A stretch of DNA of 64,000 bases from Thauera humireducens. GTDB lineage: Bacteria > Pseudomonadota > Gammaproteobacteria > Burkholderiales > Rhodocyclaceae. The notes beneath the pieces were generated by a model that was given only the letters and a program-made list of their open reading frames with translations, was not told the DNA's origin and made no database searches. The position numbers were made by a program, and so were the translations under genes. Numbering within the stretch: position 1 is the stretch's first letter; each line of letters starts with the position of its first letter. Location: assembly GCF_001051995.2 (NCBI RefSeq), contig NZ_CP014646.1:1-64000 (forward strand). Reading direction: 5' to 3'. This document shows, piece by piece, positions 19,863 through 52,198 of the stretch.

Positions 19863-19948
19863 GCACCACAGGTGCAGGGAGCAGGGTGCCGGCCGCCGGC
19901 TGGCGCCACATACCTGACAACGGGGTTCCGGACCCCGGAGGAGAGACG

Positions 19949-20746
19949 ATGAAAAAACAACTCAAGGCGATTGCCGTGAGCGTAGGGCTTGCCCTGGCAG
20001 CGCCCGCGTTCGCGCAGGAAGACCTGAATTTCGACGCCTACCGCGAGATGCTGGCGGATGGCAATCCGGCCGAACTCTACGAAATGGAAGGGGAAGAGCT
20101 GTGGCGGACCGCGCGCGGTCCCAAGAACGCCACGCTCGAGCAGTGCGACCTCGGCCTGGGGGCAGGCGTGGTCGAAGGGGCTGCGGCACAACTGCCGCGC
20201 TTCTTCAAGGACACGGGCAAGGTGCAGGATCTCGAGTCCCGCCTGATGTACTGCATGGAAACGCTGCAGGGCATCCCCTCCGCGGAGATCATCAACGGCA
20301 AGTTCCTGCAGGGCGAGCGCGGCAAGGTCGCGGCGCTGGTGGCCTACGTGGTCACGCACTCCAAGGGCGCGAAGCTCGCCGTCGATCTCTCGCATCCCAA
20401 GATGAAGGAGATGTACGCGCTGGGCGAGCGGGCCTTCTACTACCGCACCGGCGCGATGGATTTCTCCTGTGCGTCCTGCCACAGCCAGGACGACAAGCGC
20501 ATCCGCGCCACGCAACTGCCCAACATCACCAAGCCGGAAGGCGCGGCGGCGGGCTGGAGTTCGTGGCCCGCGTATCGCGTCTCGAATTCGCAATTCTGGA
20601 CCATGCAGCATCGGCTGTGGGACTGCTTCCGTCAGCAGCGCACGGCCGAGCCGATCTTCGCCTCGGACGTGACCATCGCGCTGTCGGTGTTCATGGCGGG
20701 CAAGGGCAACGGTGCCGAGGCCCAGTGGCCGGGCGTGAAGCGCTAA
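19949..20746 (+). CDS. soxA: SoxA, thiosulfate-binding cytochrome subunit (monoheme type)
   Basis: A 265-residue periplasmic cytochrome that, with SoxX, joins thiosulfate to SoxY by a disulfide. Signal peptide 1-22. The only CXXCH is CASCH (174-178). The N-terminal heme site of diheme SoxA proteins is replaced by cysteines in EQCDLGLG and MYCMETL, which probably form a disulfide. Cys226 in WDCFRQQR is the conserved persulfide-bearing heme ligand. The ATG at 19949 follows GGAGGAGAGAC. Confidence 0.95.
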   Translation: MKKQLKAIAVSVGLALAAPAFAQEDLNFDAYREMLADGNPAELYEMEGEELWRTARGPKNATLEQCDLGLGAGVVEGAAAQLPRFFKDTGKVQDLESRLMYCMETLQGIPSAEIINGKFLQGERGKVAALVAYVVTHSKGAKLAVDLSHPKMKEMYALGERAFYYRTGAMDFSCASCHSQDDKRIRATQLPNITKPEGAAAGWSSWPAYRVSNSQFWTMQHRLWDCFRQQRTAEPIFASDVTIALSVFMAGKGNGAEAQWPGVKR

Positions 20747-37539: not shown

Positions 37540-40029
37540 ATGACTGCTGCCGACCTGAGCGCTGCCCCGACCCAAGACGTGGTCGACACCGATTGTTATC
37601 ACTGCGGTCTGCCGATTCCGCCCGAGACGCGCCACTACGTTCGCGTGGATGGACGTGAGCGAAGGATGTGCTGCGTCGGCTGCGAGGCGGTCGCCCAGTC
37701 CATCGTTGATAACGGCCTGGTGGATTATTACCGCCACCGCGACGCAATGCCCGAGACGCGACGCGAAGCCATGCCGGTCGAGCTGCAGGAACTGGGGCTC
37801 TTCGATCATCCCGATTTCCAGAAGAGCTTCGTACGCCCGGTAGGCGAGCACGAGCGCGAGGCCTCGCTGATCCTCGAAGGCATCACCTGTGCGGCCTGCG
37901 TGTGGCTCAACGAGAAGCACGTTGCCCGTCAGGACGGCGTCTCCGCGGTCGAGATCAACTATGCGACGCGCCGTGCCCGCGTGCGCTGGGACGAGCGCAA
38001 GATCAAGCTGTCGGACATCCTCGGTGCCATCCAGGCGATCGGTTACCGCGCCTATCCGTACGACGCCGAGCGCTCCGAACAGATCGCCGACCGCGAACGT
38101 CGCTCGATGCTGTGGCGGGTCTTTGTCGCCGGCTTCGGCATGATGCAGGTCATGATGTACGCCTTCCCCGTCTACGTGGCGAGGGATGGCGACATGACCT
38201 GGGACATCGAGCAGTTGCTGCGCTGGGCCAGCCTGCTGCTGACCCTGCCGGTGGTGCTGTACTCGGCCGCGCCCTTCTTTCAGCGGGCCTGGCGCGATGT
38301 TCGCCTGCGCCGGCTCGGCATGGACGTGCCGGTCGCGGTCGGGGTGGGCAGCGCATTTCTTGCCAGCCTGTGGGCGACACTGACCGATGGGCCCGAGGTG
38401 TATTTCGACTCGGTCACGATGTTCGTCTTCTTCCTGCTCGGCGGCCGCTATCTCGAGATGATCGCGCGCCAGAAGGCGGTGCGCGGCGTCGAAGAACTGG
38501 GCAAGGTGCTGCCATCCTTCGCCGAGCGCCTCGCTGGCTGGCCCGCTCAGACGACGGGTGACCGCGTGCCGACGGCGCAACTCGAGCCTGGGGACATCCT
38601 GCGGGTGCGGCCGGGTGAGGTGATTCCGGCCGATGGCGTGGTCGTGGATGGCGTTGGCGAGGTCAATGAGGCGCTGCTGACTGGCGAGAGCGTGCCCATC
38701 GCCAAGCGCGCGGGGGACAGCCTGACCGGTGGCAGCATCAACGTGTCGTCCCCGCTGCTGTTCCGGGTGGAGCACGTGGGCGACGCCACGCGCCTCGCCG
38801 CGATTTGTCGCCTGATGGAGCGCGCTGCGACCGAGAAGCCTCGTGTCGCGACGCAGTCGGACAGGGTCGCAGCCTGGTTCATCGTCACGCTGCTGGTCCT
38901 TGCGTCCATCACGGGCGTCGCCTGGTACTTCATCGACAGCGAGCGGGCGTTGTGGGTGTTCGTGTCGGTGCTGGTGGTCGCCTGTCCCTGTGCGCTGTCG
39001 CTGGCCACGCCGACCGCGCTGACAGTGGGTACCGACGCGATGGCGCGCATGGGTGTGCTGGTCACCCGCGGCCACGCGATCGAAACCCTGGCCCATGCCA
39101 ATCATTTCGTGTTCGACAAGACGGGCACCCTGACCCATGGCCGGATGCGGCTCGAGGAGGTTCTGCCGCTCGGTGAGCGTGGCGCCGATGAACTGATCGC
39201 GGTCGCGGCAGCGATAGAACAGGGGTCCGAGCATCCGGTTGCTGCGGGCTTGCGCGAGGCCGCGGCCGGATTCGCCTTGCCCGAGGTTGCCGGGCTCCGG
39301 GCAGAAACGGGGCAGGGCATGCAGGGGCTGATCGACGGCAGGCGGGTCTGGATCGGCCGCCCCTTGTATGTGGCGGAGTCGGCCGGACTTTCAATGCCGC
39401 AGGGTCTCGACGCCTTTTCCGCCACTGGCGGCACGGTCGTGGCGCTGGCGGCGGAGGGCGGCTGGCTTGGCGCCTTCCGCCTGGCCGATACCTTGCGCGA
39501 CGAGGCGCCGGTGCTCGCGCAGCGTCTTGCCCGTGAGGGTACGGCGGTGTCGGTGCTGTCCGGTGACTCGCCCGCCGTCGTCGCCTCGGTCGCAGCTTCG
39601 CTCGGCGTTGGCGATGCGCATGGCGGCATGACGCCGCAGGGCAAGCAGGCGTGGATCGCCGAGCGGCAGAAGGACGCCGGGACGGTCGTGGCGATGGTCG
39701 GCGATGGCGTGAACGACGCGCCGGTGCTCGCGCAGGCGCACGTGTCGGTCGCGATGGGTGGCGGTACGGATCTCGCGCGGAACCAGGCCGACATCGTGCT
39801 GCTCAGCGAGAACCTCGCCAGCCTCGGCCGCGCAATCGAGCTTTCACGCAAGACGCTGCGCATCATCCGCCAGAACCTGTGGTGGTCCTTCACCTACAAC
39901 TTCACTTCGGTGCCGCTTGCGATGGCAGGCCTGGTCACGCCCTGGATGGCCGGCATCGGCATGGCGGCCAGTTCGCTGCTGGTGGTGCTCAATGCGATGC
40001 GCCTGCAACGCGTGCCGCGTGGCGAGTGA
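37540..40029 (+). CDS. ccoI: Copper-exporting P1B-ATPase CcoI/FixI for cbb3 assembly
   Basis: An 829-residue membrane ATPase that supplies copper for the binuclear centre of cbb3 oxidase. The N-terminal cysteine-rich region (CYHCGLPIP and CCVGCEAV) is the CcoI-specific metal-binding domain, followed by an HMA domain with ITCAACVW. The ion channel motif is CPC in VACPCALSLATP, the phosphorylation site is DKTGTLT, and the hinge is GDGVNDAP. The frame is open to 37423, but the ATG at 37540 gives the normal length and avoids translating the hairpin. Confidence 0.93.
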   Translation: MTAADLSAAPTQDVVDTDCYHCGLPIPPETRHYVRVDGRERRMCCVGCEAVAQSIVDNGLVDYYRHRDAMPETRREAMPVELQELGLFDHPDFQKSFVRPVGEHEREASLILEGITCAACVWLNEKHVARQDGVSAVEINYATRRARVRWDERKIKLSDILGAIQAIGYRAYPYDAERSEQIADRERRSMLWRVFVAGFGMMQVMMYAFPVYVARDGDMTWDIEQLLRWASLLLTLPVVLYSAAPFFQRAWRDVRLRRLGMDVPVAVGVGSAFLASLWATLTDGPEVYFDSVTMFVFFLLGGRYLEMIARQKAVRGVEELGKVLPSFAERLAGWPAQTTGDRVPTAQLEPGDILRVRPGEVIPADGVVVDGVGEVNEALLTGESVPIAKRAGDSLTGGSINVSSPLLFRVEHVGDATRLAAICRLMERAATEKPRVATQSDRVAAWFIVTLLVLASITGVAWYFIDSERALWVFVSVLVVACPCALSLATPTALTVGTDAMARMGVLVTRGHAIETLAHANHFVFDKTGTLTHGRMRLEEVLPLGERGADELIAVAAAIEQGSEHPVAAGLREAAAGFALPEVAGLRAETGQGMQGLIDGRRVWIGRPLYVAESAGLSMPQGLDAFSATGGTVVALAAEGGWLGAFRLADTLRDEAPVLAQRLAREGTAVSVLSGDSPAVVASVAASLGVGDAHGGMTPQGKQAWIAERQKDAGTVVAMVGDGVNDAPVLAQAHVSVAMGGGTDLARNQADIVLLSENLASLGRAIELSRKTLRIIRQNLWWSFTYNFTSVPLAMAGLVTPWMAGIGMAASSLLVVLNAMRLQRVPRGE

Positions 40030-40050
40030 GTCCCGGATCGCGGAAACGAC

Positions 40051-40266
40051 ATGGAAAGCCTCTACATCCTCATTCCCATCTCGATCGTGCTGGTGTTCAT
40101 CATCGGCGTCCTGTTCTGGTGGTCGCTGCGAAACGGGCAGTACGACGACATGGAAGGGCCTGCCTACAGGATGTTGATGGATGACCGCGACGAGGGGCGG
40201 CCGGCTCCGGATGAGGCATCGACGCCACAGGCGGGACGAGGTGCCGACCCACAGAAGCGGGACTGA
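40051..40266 (+). CDS. ccoS: cbb3 oxidase maturation protein CcoS
   Basis: A 71-residue single-pass membrane protein: MESLYILIPISIVLVFIIGV is the helix and DDMEGPAYRMLMDD is the conserved cytosolic motif. CcoS is needed to insert heme and copper into CcoN. It follows ccoI by 21 bp. Confidence 0.93.
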   Translation: MESLYILIPISIVLVFIIGVLFWWSLRNGQYDDMEGPAYRMLMDDRDEGRPAPDEASTPQAGRGADPQKRD

Positions 40267-40291
40267 CCGCGCCCCAGGTTGCGCGAATCGG

Positions 40292-40332
40292 TTGACCTAG
40301 GTCAACTCTGCGCAGTGAAGAATAGGCATACT
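40292..40332 (+). promoter_or_regulatory. Fnr-type promoter of a candidate small RNA
   Basis: TTGACCTAGGTCAA (40292-40305) is a perfect palindrome of the Fnr form TTGAC-N4-GTCAA. CATACT (40327-40332) lies 28.5 bp from its centre, the same spacing as in the ccoN promoter downstream. This is the geometry of a class II Fnr-activated promoter, with a predicted start near 40339. Confidence 0.72.
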
Positions 40333-40338
40333 GGCGCC

Positions 40339-40436
40339 ATTGGTATTGAGCGTCCCGAAACGGGGGTGTTCGTACCGCTGGGTTTTATGTCTCTCTGTTG
40401 GGGTTGGGGGTGCGTTCATTCGCACCCTTTTTTTTT
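40339..40436 (+). ncRNA. Candidate Fnr-activated small RNA upstream of ccoN
   Basis: Predicted transcript of about 98 nt between the Fnr-type promoter and an intrinsic terminator. The 5' part can fold around CCCGAAACGGG (40354-40364); the middle, including ATGTCTCTCTGTT (40387-40399), is predicted single-stranded; the 3' end is the terminator. No convincing ORF fits inside. GUCUCUC in the open region is complementary to the GAGAGAC of the soxY and soxA ribosome-binding sites, so sox mRNAs are possible targets (speculative). Alternatively this is an attenuated ccoN leader or a terminator serving ccoIS. Confidence 0.55.
40408..40436 (+). terminator. Intrinsic terminator upstream of ccoN
   Basis: GGGTGCG (40408-40414), loop TTCATT, CGCACCC (40421-40427) and nine T residues (40428-40436). 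Textbook form. It would stop transcripts from ccoIS or from the Fnr-type promoter at 40292 before they reach ccoN. Confidence 0.93.
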
Positions 40437-40554
40437 GCGCTTGCGACGTGCAGCAGATCGTGGTGGGAGAGCATTGATTCGAGCGGTGTGCCACACGCGA
40501 TGATCGTGCCCGGAGTTCGATTGCTTCCGCCGGGTGCCGCACTGCAATACAATG

Positions 40555-40595
40555 TTGATCTGTATCAAATTGAGGTTCCGGCCTCCGCGTATTCT
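40555..40595 (+). promoter_or_regulatory. Fnr-activated promoter of ccoNOQP
   Basis: TTGATCTGTATCAA (40555-40568) is a perfect Fnr box; TATTCT (40590-40595) is 28.5 bp from its centre. The predicted leader is about 75 nt to the ccoN ATG. Activation by Fnr/Anr at low oxygen is the known mode for cbb3 operons. Confidence 0.88.
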
Positions 40596-40676
40596 TCGTG
40601 CCGACGTCGCCGGGGAGTCCGTTCGCGGTCGGGTGGCGTTGCTCAAAAAGGGGTTTTCAACTAAGAGGTGACTCAC

Positions 40677-42107
40677 ATGCAATCGCAAGCGACTTATAAC
40701 TATAAAGTCGTGCGCCAGTTCGCCATCATGACGGTGGTATGGGGCATCGTGGGCATGCTGGTCGGTGTCATCGCCGCAGCACAGCTCGTGTGGCCTGAAC
40801 TGAACGTTCACGAATTCCTGCATTTCGGCAGGCTCCGTCCGCTTCACACCAACGCGGTGATCTTCGCGTTTGGCGGTTGCGCGCTGTTCGCCACGTCCTA
40901 CTACGTGGTGCAGCGGACCTGTCATACCCGTCTGTTTGCGCCCGGCCTGGCGGCCTTCACCTTCTGGGGCTGGCAGCTCGTCATCGTATTGGCTGCGATC
41001 ACCCTGCCGCTCGGCTACACGACCTCCAAGGAGTACGCCGAACTCGAGTGGCCGATCGACATCCTGATCGCCATCGTGTGGGTGTCCTACGCGATCGTGT
41101 TCTTTGGCACCATCGCCAAGCGCAAGATCTCGCACATCTACGTCGCCAACTGGTTCTTCGGCGCCTTCATCCTGACCGTCGCGCTGCTGCACATCGTCAA
41201 CAGCGCCGCGATCCCGGTGTCGCTGACCAGCATGAAGTCCTACTCCGCCTACGCGGGCGTGCAGGACGCGATGGTGCAGTGGTGGTACGGCCACAACGCG
41301 GTGGGCTTCTTCCTGACCGCAGGCTTCCTCGGCATGATGTACTACTTCGTGCCGAAGCAGGCCGACCGTCCGGTGTATTCGTATCGCCTGTCCGTCGTCC
41401 ACTTCTGGGCGCTGATCTTCACGTACATGTGGGCGGGTCCGCACCACCTGCACTACACCGCGCTGCCTGACTGGACCCAGTCCGTCGGCATGGTGTTCTC
41501 GCTGATCCTGCTAGCGCCGTCCTGGGGTGGCATGATCAACGGCATCATGACCCTGTCGGGCGCCTGGCATAAGCTGCGTACCGACCCGATCCTGAAGTTC
41601 CTGATCACCTCGCTGTCCTTCTACGGCATGTCGACCTTCGAAGGTCCGATGATGTCGGTGAAGACCGTGAATGCGCTGTCGCACTACACCGACTGGACCG
41701 TCGGCCACGTGCACTCCGGTGCGCTGGGCTGGGTGGCGATGATCTCGATCGGCGCGATCTACTTCCTGCTGCCGCGTCTGTATGGCAAGACCGAGATGTA
41801 CAGCGTCAAGCTGATCAACGCCCACTTCTGGATCGCCACCATCGGTGTCGTGCTCTACATCGCCTCGATGTGGATTGCCGGCGTGATGCAGGGTCTGATG
41901 TGGCGCGCGACCAACCCGGACGGCACGCTGACCTACTCCTTCGTCGAGAGTGTGAAGGCCAGCTATCCGTTCTGGACCATCCGCTTCATCGGCGGCGCGC
42001 TGTTCCTCTTCGGCATGGTGCTCATGTTCTACAACATGGTGAAGACCATCGCCGGCCAAAAGGCCTACGACGCTCCGGTGCTTGCCCCCGCAGCCGCCCA
42101 CGCCTGA
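40677..42107 (+). CDS. ccoN: cbb3-type cytochrome c oxidase subunit I (CcoN)
   Basis: A 476-residue, 12-helix catalytic subunit that reduces O2 to water at high affinity. Heme and CuB histidines are visible in [22 protein letters not shown] and [17 protein letters not shown]. The ATG at 40677 is preferred to the GTG at 40668 because AAGAGG lies 8 bp before it. First gene of ccoNOQP. Confidence 0.98.
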
Positions 42108-50167: not shown

Positions 50168-50848
50168 TCAGGCCTGGTAGCGGGCGAGGCGGGTCGGGTC
50201 GTGCAAGGTGATGCGTTTGCCCTGAACGCTGATCAGGCCCGATTCGCTGAGGTCGTGAAAGATGCGCGACAGGGTTTCGGGCGTCAGGTTCAGGCGTGAA
50301 GCGATGACCTGCTTGCTGGTCGGCAGCGCGATCTCGCACGGCGTGTCGCTGTCGGCGACCTGCAGCAGGTAGCCGATCACACGCTGGATGCTCGAGCGCA
50401 GCGAATAGGTCTCCACGTCCTGGATCAGCCCGTGCAGGCGGATGGCCATGCCGGCGAGGAGCTTGTGCGCGAAGGTGGAGTCCTGGTCGATCAGCTCGGT
50501 GACCACGGCCTGGCCGACGTGGATCAGCAGTGTTTCGGTCAGCGCTTCGGCGAACACCGGATAGGGCTTGTTCATGAACATCACGGCCTCTCCGAAGCTC
50601 TGCATCGGGCCGATGATCTCCACGACCTTCTCGGTCCCCTGTGGCGACGAAAAGGCGAGCTTGACCTGACCCGAGACGACGAAGTAAAAGCCATGCGGCT
50701 GGTCGCCGCGCTGGAACAGCACCTCGCCACGCCCGATGTGGCGGTCACGCGTGTAGCGCGCGACAAGCTCGAGATCGGTGTCCGAGAGTTCGCTGAACAG
50801 CGGGATGCGCTTGAGCAGCGCAGGCAGGTCGAGGGCGGCGTGGGTCAT
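50168..50848 (-). CDS. Crp/Fnr-family regulator, Dnr-like
   Basis: A 226-residue regulator with an N-terminal cyclic-nucleotide-like fold and a C-terminal HTH. It has no N-terminal cysteine cluster, unlike Fnr, so it cannot bind a [4Fe-4S] cluster that way. The recognition helix ETLSRIFHDL keeps the E--SR pattern that reads TTGAT half-sites. Dnr/NnrR-type proteins sense NO through heme and drive denitrification genes; this is the best guess. The ATG at 50848 is preferred to the longer frame. Confidence 0.82.
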   Translation of the reverse strand: MTHAALDLPALLKRIPLFSELSDTDLELVARYTRDRHIGRGEVLFQRGDQPHGFYFVVSGQVKLAFSSPQGTEKVVEIIGPMQSFGEAVMFMNKPYPVFAEALTETLLIHVGQAVVTELIDQDSTFAHKLLAGMAIRLHGLIQDVETYSLRSSIQRVIGYLLQVADSDTPCEIALPTSKQVIASRLNLTPETLSRIFHDLSESGLISVQGKRITLHDPTRLARYQA

Positions 50849-51356: not shown

Positions 51357-52103
51357 TCAGCGCCCGCTGCCGGCCGTCTGGTGCTGGATGAGCTTGCGCA
51401 GGCCGGCGGTATCCAGCAGGCGGATGTGCTTCTGCTGCACGGCGATCAGGCCTTCTTCCTGGAAGCGCGAGAAGGCGCGTGACACGGTCTCGAGCTTGAG
51501 CCCGAGATAGGAGCCGATTTCCTCGCGCGTCATGCGCAGGTGGAACTCGGCCGCCGAAAAACCGCGTGCGGTGAAGCGCTGCGACATGTTGAGCAGGAAG
51601 GCCGCCAGGCGCTCCTCGGCGCGCATCGAGCCGAGCAGCATCATCACGCCGTGGTCGCGCACGATCTCACGGCTCATGACCTTGTGGAACTGATGCTGCA
51701 GGCCTTCGACCTCGTGAGACAACTGTTCGAGCTTGGCGTAGGGGATCACGCACACCTCGCTGTCTTCCAGCGCGACGGCGTTGCAACTGTGCGTCTCGGT
51801 GCTGATGCCATCCAGACCGAGAATCTCCCCGGTCATCTGGAAGCCGGTCACCTGGTCGCGACCATCTTCGAGCAGCACGTCGGTCTTGAACGAGCCCGCA
51901 CGGATCGCGTAGATCGCCTCGAAGGTGTCTCCCGCGCGGTAGAGGTTCTGCTGGCGCTTCACCTTGCGTCGCGCACCCACCAGTTCATCCAGGCGGCTCA
52001 GTTCGCTGTCGGGCATGCCGAAGGGCAGGCACAGTTCCACAAGATTACACTGCGAACAGGCGGTCTTGAGCCCGCTCACGGTAATTGCCACGCTTGCCCT
52101 CAT
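51357..52103 (-). CDS. fnr: Oxygen-sensing regulator Fnr (Anr/FixK-like, four-cysteine)
   Basis: A 248-residue global regulator of anaerobic and microaerobic genes. N-terminal Cys16, Cys19 and Cys25 (CSQCNLVELC) and Cys107 form the oxygen-labile [4Fe-4S] site. The recognition helix ETVSRAFSRFQ reads TTGAT. The frame is open to a TTG at 52142; the ATG at 52103 gives the normal spacing to the first Cys. Divergent from hemN, a usual Fnr target. It is the obvious candidate for the Fnr boxes in this window. Confidence 0.94.
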   Translation of the reverse strand: MRASVAITVSGLKTACSQCNLVELCLPFGMPDSELSRLDELVGARRKVKRQQNLYRAGDTFEAIYAIRAGSFKTDVLLEDGRDQVTGFQMTGEILGLDGISTETHSCNAVALEDSEVCVIPYAKLEQLSHEVEGLQHQFHKVMSREIVRDHGVMMLLGSMRAEERLAAFLLNMSQRFTARGFSAAEFHLRMTREEIGSYLGLKLETVSRAFSRFQEEGLIAVQQKHIRLLDTAGLRKLIQHQTAGSGR

Positions 52104-52184: not shown

Positions 52185-52198
52185 TTGATCCACGTCAA
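52185..52198. promoter_or_regulatory. Fnr-type box in the fnr-hemN intergenic region
   Basis: TTGATCCACGTCAA matches TTGAT-N4-RTCAA. Its centre is 29.5 bp before CATTGT (52221-52226), a weak -10 for hemN. It could also serve fnr autoregulation in the other direction. Confidence 0.75.

Follow-up and report, generated by a model that had tools for sequence, protein, structure and literature searches.

Related small RNAs and their likeness to the locus

The functional class of Fnr-activated small RNAs (sRNAs) is exemplified by FnrS of enterobacteria. The sRNA proposed here for Thauera humireducens would have in common with FnrS both its activation by Fnr and a shutdown of oxygen-linked functions, and differs from it in host group, locus and sequence. 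SorY and SorX of Rhodobacter (RF02651, RF02784) are alphaproteobacterial; they share with the locus the motif CUC-Y-CUGUUGG ahead of a terminator. AniS of Neisseria (RF02274), which is betaproteobacterial, matches the locus weakly over its full length, and is reported to be induced in anoxia (PMC4423775). SicX of Pseudomonas aeruginosa is transcribed under Anr control at low oxygen; it is reported to lack homologues in other species and to activate its target (PMC10247376), whereas the Thauera sRNA is found in many genera and would, on the present proposal, act as a repressor. Finally, S17S of Bordetella is reported, in extracts of a further study, to be conserved into Aromatoleum over a 27-nt region (PMC11722255). 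As far as those extracts go, the family of S17S, the 'toxic sRNA' (RF02278) and the Burkholderia double-hairpin RNAs resembles the Thauera element in being short and in carrying a CU-rich stretch complementary to ribosome-binding sites, followed by a terminator.

The window analysed here is a stretch of 64,000 nucleotides of the T. humireducens genome, in which only a tRNA scored above the Rfam cut-off. Eight Rfam hits up to E = 10 were obtained at the locus, none of them FnrS, and the gathering scores were missed by SorY (29.6 bits against 111), AniS (22.6 against 50) and SorX (16.6 against 46.6). Since all lie below their gathering scores, membership in AniS, SorY or SorX was rejected, and the original prediction that the RNA would be dissimilar to known ones agrees with the fact that every Rfam hit at the locus falls short in this way. 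When ten relatives were searched up to E = 0.5, AniS gave no match in any of them. The sub-threshold match to SorY covers positions 40358-40435 of the window and recurs in four of ten relatives (L047, L038, L002 and L005; best score 38.6); this likeness may stem from shared ancestry or from convergence.

For RF02278 (gathering score 50), no hit up to E = 10 was found in 40270-40460. The genome holds two members of that family elsewhere, at 4164792-4164856 (L059) and 1529333-1529399 (L060), which score 65.9 and 57.9 bits. Their seed, GUCUCCUCCACCCUCCUCCUUUGGUG, is unlike the core of the Thauera sRNA, and, read as GUCUCCUCC...CUCCUUUGGUGUGGAUU, sets them apart as a further family of CU-rich sRNAs in this genome. 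An assignment of the locus to RF02278/S17S was rejected because the genome's own members lie elsewhere with another seed and the primer of the S17S study fits those, a judgement that rests on the text and primer in the extracts (PMC11722255). As a separate observation, one locus (L081 of genome G098) carries GGTCTCCTCCCCCTGTTGGGGTTAGGGCAG ahead of its terminator, in a seemingly repeated arrangement that resembles a mix of the RF02278 seed and the sRNA core.

Searches of the open-access literature turned up no description of an sRNA between ccoS and ccoN. Omics work on A. aromaticum includes a discussion of Fnr and, in the available sections, touches on small RNAs only in passing (PMC9765128). 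The element apparently represents an undescribed RNA family of the Fnr-activated kind.

Organization of the locus

Table 1. Position and support of the features between ccoS and ccoN and of associated features in the window
Feature	Position	Strand	Support
ccoS	40051..40266	+	NCBIfam TIGR00847, 74.5 bits (cut-off 28.35)
Fnr-type box TTGACCTAGGTCAA, perfect palindrome	40292..40305	+	Centre at about -41.5 from predicted start; kept as TTGAY-N4-RTCAA in 49/51 homologous loci
-10 hexamer CATACT	40327..40332	+	21 bp after box; similar hexamer at spacer 21-22 in 44/49
Predicted small RNA, about 98 nt	40339..40436	+	Both ends predicted
5' hairpin	40341..40377	+	Fold kept, sequence not; in 49 RNAs the 5' part has a mean z of -2.1
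Conserved core GTCTCTCTGTTGGGGTTGGGGG, proposed pairing region	40389..40410	+	51-locus alignment; overlaps start of terminator stem
Intrinsic terminator with nine T	40406..40436	+	Read from sequence; near-invariant in alignment
Second box TTGATCTGTATCAA, that of ccoN	40555..40568	+	Read from sequence
ccoN	40677..42107	+	NCBIfam TIGR00780, 788.8 bits (cut-off 583)
fnr, likely activator	51357..52091	-	NCBIfam NF008365, 251.5 bits (cut-off 228)
Candidate pairing site GGAGGAGAGAC, soxA leader	19937..19947	+	soxA starts at 19949; SoxA TIGR04484, 243.3 bits (cut-off 110)

The perfect box, the CATACT hexamer, the terminator with nine T and an identical spacing at ccoN, on which the original prediction had been built, are all present. 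The spacer is 21 at both promoters, with the -10 hexamer of ccoN (TATTCT) at 40590-40595. The terminator stem has 9 bp (40406-40429) and the nine T occupy 40428-40436. Downstream, ccoO and ccoP also score above the NCBIfam cut-offs.

Against chance, these elements fare differently. The perfect box occurs once in the window, in which five matches with up to three mismatches were found and 0.82 were expected. The terminator alone is not rarer than chance (1 found, 1.2 expected), so that the case for an sRNA unit rests on comparison with other genomes. No sigma-70 -35/-10 pair was called in 39500-41000, and the -35 element at the sRNA promoter may be replaced by the activator. The predicted 98-nt RNA is more stable than 199 of 200 shuffled versions (z -3.3).

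Conservation across the family

A blastn search with a 161-base query retrieved the locus from 51 of 101 genomes, comprising all 29 of the genus (that of T. humireducens included), 22 of the 32 other family members and none of the 40 outside the family; the conserved part corresponds to about the last 55 bases, the 3' part. The search yielded 52 loci, of which one (L052), with neither a box nor cco genes, was dropped. In the alignment of the remaining 51, the core GUCUCUCUGUUGGGGUUGGGGG is near-invariant, and the bases UCUCUGUUGGGGUU and most of the terminator stem are invariant. A match to CcoS lies upstream in 50 loci, L051 being at a contig end, and CcoN is found within the 1.5-kb downstream stretch in 47.

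The loci were chosen by the core and not by the box. Even so, 49 of the 51 have the box, at a distance of 63 to 104 bases upstream of the aligned core (L049 has none), and it is followed by a TATAAT-like hexamer at a spacer of 21 in 32 loci and of 22 in 12. No such hexamer was seen in any of the 49 boxed loci at spacers of 14-20 or 23-24, two were seen at 25 and one at 33. Loss of the box-terminator pair in relatives had been named beforehand as a refutation of the proposal; the pair is kept in the homologous loci. These counts support a separate short RNA with an Fnr-type promoter and a terminator of its own, and the promoter-RNA-terminator unit is, on comparison of sequences, very likely real.

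A covariance model of the core (E ≤ 1e-7) extended this picture, with matches in 155 of the 199 genomes examined from the family, spread over 54 of 68 genera. The other 44 genomes gave no match at that threshold, although ccoN was found in 185 of the 199. Among 399 genomes of the order, core matches above 50 bits came from 13 family genomes and two outside the family (G234 and G253), and both of the latter adjoin ccoS and ccoN and have a box; among the matches listed, the weaker ones often consist of the terminator only. Similarly, a pattern scan of named genomes gave at least 119 stretches, 80 of which were examined, some from the same genomes as the 51-locus set. Three that have no terminator and look like chance occurrences (L102, L104, L157) were left out. 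A box is present in 73 of the 77 others, and at least one of ccoN, ccoS and ccoI lies nearby in all 77. The genera represented include Thauera, Azoarcus, Aromatoleum, Denitromonas, Zoogloea, Uliginosibacterium, Azonexus, Dechloromonas, Accumulibacter, Sulfuritalea and Tepidiphilus.

Conservation of this kind bears on two simpler accounts of the element. It could be merely the terminator of the cco assembly operon next to an unrelated promoter-like box, as its position just after ccoS and a terminator no rarer than chance would allow. However, a terminator needs neither the 14 invariant bases ahead of it nor a fixed box-to-hexamer spacing in 44 of 49 loci, and this account is hardly credible. 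It could also be a cis-acting leader or attenuator of ccoN, which it precedes in most loci. This too is highly improbable: ccoN has its own box and -10 hexamer downstream of the terminator, and the unit persists where ccoN is not adjacent. No ccoN lies in the 4.7 kb downstream of L034/L120, ccoN is some 20 kb from the unit in the genome of L036, and other genes intervene in L117 (one of them OmpW-like, Pfam OmpW) and in L170.

Identity of the activator

The boxed loci also inform on the regulator, which is likely to be Fnr itself. A Dnr/Nnr-type paralogue that responds to nitric oxide or denitrification, and not to oxygen alone, is an unlikely alternative that finds some footing in the boxes, for the commonest half-site is TTGAC instead of TTGAT and 16 of the 49 boxes read TTGACCTAGGTCAA. 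Further, a second Crp/Fnr-family protein is encoded at 50168-50848 (every score below cut-off), and the available text on A. aromaticum names further Fnr/Crp-type regulators in that organism, nnr and dnrD (PMC9765128). Against this stand the presence of fnr itself in the window and the boxes close to TTGAT-N4-ATCAA among the 49. A box of another sequence, TTGATCCACGTCAA, lies at 52185-52198, 94 bp upstream of the fnr reading frame, and suggests fnr autoregulation.

Structure and coding potential of the RNA

The sequence of the 5' part is not conserved, and RNAalifold demonstrated no covariation in it, returning only a small UCUC/GGGG hairpin and the terminator. Covariation was set aside as a proof of structure because the core shows so little variation and the 5' part is hard to align; instead, the fold stability of each 5' part was compared with shuffled sequences. 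All 49 boxed RNAs fold below -5 kcal/mol in this part (median -18.2), and 39 of them have z below -1 against dinucleotide shuffles. The pairing stretch had been predicted to be single-stranded. This holds in part: the seed has a mean unpaired probability of 0.49 in the isolated fold, which makes it about half unpaired on average.

The view that the region has no credible open reading frame stands, as none is common to the 49 RNAs, many of which lack a start codon in frame with the core. The stretch 40339-40436 probably encodes a non-coding, trans-acting sRNA activated by an Fnr-type regulator, whose core would pair with selected mRNA leaders; base-pairing is its probable mode of action.

Candidate targets

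Leaders were ranked by duplex energy with the 22-nt core (1004 leaders) and by short-seed energy (1005 leaders), over 1.264 Mb or about 30% of this genome. The 3.5-3.9 Mb block within the ranked part was chosen with the cysI-like and pobA hits known beforehand, and the LigI-like gene not. Genes were called with a simple predictor that missed the true start of soxA, which was scored separately. The names of soxA, soxY, pobA, ligA, ligB, ligK, fnr and the cco genes rest on scores above the NCBIfam cut-offs.

A general anti-Shine-Dalgarno role was rejected, there being no excess of complementary leaders among the 1004: exact matches of at least 7 nt occur in 24 of them, compared with 694 of 20080 when the cores were shuffled. 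GAGAGA overlaps ordinary ribosome-binding sites. The pattern ACAGAGAGA-N2-11-ATG occurs 46 times in the 29 genomes of the genus and its reversed control 16 times, a control that ignores the purine-rich nature of ribosome-binding sites.

The leader of a LigI-like amidohydrolase gene (3614760) came first of 1004 by core duplex energy, at -38.7, the next being at -34.3, and one of 104 shuffled cores reached its energy. Its site, CCCCCAGCCACAACAGAGAGA, pairs with the core at 20 of 21 positions. In the six Thauera genomes that have the gene, the pairing energy is -32.0 to -41.4 kcal/mol throughout and the pairing persists where the leader has changed, one of the six (L404) having a broken seed. In other genera, 26 readable LigI-like loci gave -14.5 to -32.0, the last value (L451) being equal to that of L404, and none contains ACAGAGA or CAGAGAG; one LigI-like locus that was not readable (L442) was left out, and so were, in the comparisons of leaders between genomes, two unreadable second copies (L416, L417). 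The gene itself is named from reading and from its neighbours, its best NCBIfam score being below cut-off and its Pfam domain Amidohydro_2. Its immediate neighbours are ligK on one side and ligA-ligB on the other, each of them above its cut-off, which places the site ahead of the genes for protocatechuate 4,5-dioxygenase, an oxygen-using enzyme.

Two further candidates were followed across Thauera. The leader of pobA, which encodes an oxygen-using monooxygenase (642.9 bits, cut-off 538.7), has an exact match of at least 8 nt in six of six genomes, and ranks 17 of 1004 by core and 64 of 1005 by short seed. The cysI-like gene, so named by reading, encodes a reductase with a Pfam NIR_SIR domain and no NCBIfam model at cut-off; it ranks 33 by core and 22 by short seed. 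Twelve of the 46 occurrences of ACAGAGAGA-N2-11-ATG precede it, and its leader has an exact match of at least 7 nt in 24 of 27 Thauera primary copies, as against 24 of 1004 genes of this genome. Outside the genus such matches occur in one of three family members with the sRNA, one of four without it and none of 12 outside the family.

Repression of the sulfur-oxidation genes soxY and soxA by pairing with GAGAGAC had also been suggested, and here the two genes part ways. With -19.0 by short seed and -33.4 by core, soxA would be third in both rankings, although its GAGAGAC, kept in 10 of 13 readable leaders, is lost in three (L382, L383 and L385). The pairing with soxY is 7 nt long and lies inside an ordinary ribosome-binding site; the gene ranks 91 of 1005 by short seed and 403 of 1004 by core, and AGGAGAGACGG is present at the gene start in 14 of 14 close orthologues (at least 80% identity) and in none of 13 more distant ones. 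From these ranks and this conservation, soxA is a fair candidate and soxY has an ordinary strong ribosome-binding site. For comparison, soxZ would rank 160, and the window shows no enrichment of GAGAGAC, with 3 found against 9 expected. On sequence evidence, the lig operon, pobA and the cysI-like gene appear to be better or equal candidates than the sox genes. Single targets are hypothetical, the lig operon being placed first, followed by the cysI-like gene, pobA and soxA.

Small RNAs usually show target turnover around a fixed seed. This background matters for a further account, according to which the Fnr-type sRNA is real and has other main partners, the Thauera targets being incidental and a family-wide partner, or a protein target, having been missed. 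For the most part, the targets predicted are limited to the genus, and the core is found in 54 of the 68 sampled genera; further, complementary leaders show no general excess and the ranking covered about 30% of the genome. However, the LigI-like pairing takes up nearly the whole core and is kept through leader changes in six genomes, and turnover of targets around a fixed seed would be the usual course for an sRNA. Such other partners seem somewhat improbable, and pairing with the Thauera leaders is retained as the working proposal.

As a side observation, the best short-seed match of the 1005 leaders (-21.5) is GACAGGAGAGAGACATG, ahead of an uncharacterised protein encoded at 108964-109779 of this genome.

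Proposed mechanism and implications

When oxygen falls, an Fnr-type regulator would bind the box centred near -41.5, and RNA polymerase would produce an RNA of about 98 nt, with its 3' end at the intrinsic terminator. In this RNA, the conserved core would lie between a 5' hairpin that varies and the hairpin of the terminator, and could pair with selected mRNA leaders and lower their translation or stability; Hfq might have a role. The second Fnr-type promoter would meanwhile make the cbb3 oxidase. Likely partners in Thauera would be the protocatechuate 4,5-cleavage operon (LigI-like gene, ligA and ligB), pobA, the cysI-like reductase gene and possibly soxA.

A broader and more tentative proposal is that an old oxygen-responsive sRNA, its core almost unaltered throughout Thauera, Azoarcus, Zoogloea, Dechloromonas and Accumulibacter, might act post-transcriptionally as a brake on oxygen-dependent catabolism. 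While one promoter serves the cbb3 oxidase under an Fnr-type regulator, its neighbour would yield an RNA whose entire 22-nt core could silence aerobic ring cleavage and hydroxylation of aromatics, along with sulfite reduction and thiosulfate oxidation, the targets having been rewired from one genus to the next. Thauera, Azoarcus, Aromatoleum, Dechloromonas and Accumulibacter take leading parts in denitrification, the degradation of aromatics and phosphate accumulation in wastewater and sediments. With a conserved Fnr-type sRNA beside the cbb3 oxidase, their switching between oxygen and nitrate, and between aerobic and anaerobic aromatic breakdown, would gain a further, post-transcriptional level of control. 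The RNA would also illustrate neatly how targets can change fast around a fixed seed and, if the proposal is true, its resemblance to SorY/SorX below threshold would be a hint of a broader superfamily of RNAs found in more than one class.

Variant loci

A few loci depart from the common arrangement. In five genomes of one genus, g191 (G458, G511, G548, G577 and G601), the sRNA lies on one contig and the ccoN match on another, and the pair may be separated there. A second, partial copy of the core, GTGTCTCTCTGTTGGGGCTGGGGG, at 180432-180455 of genome G057 (L052) is also without a terminator. Finally, in genome G056 (L042) the core and terminator directly follow a stop codon, with no box at the usual place; the gene before this core reads by eye like ompW, and the locus is perhaps an mRNA-derived form of the sRNA.
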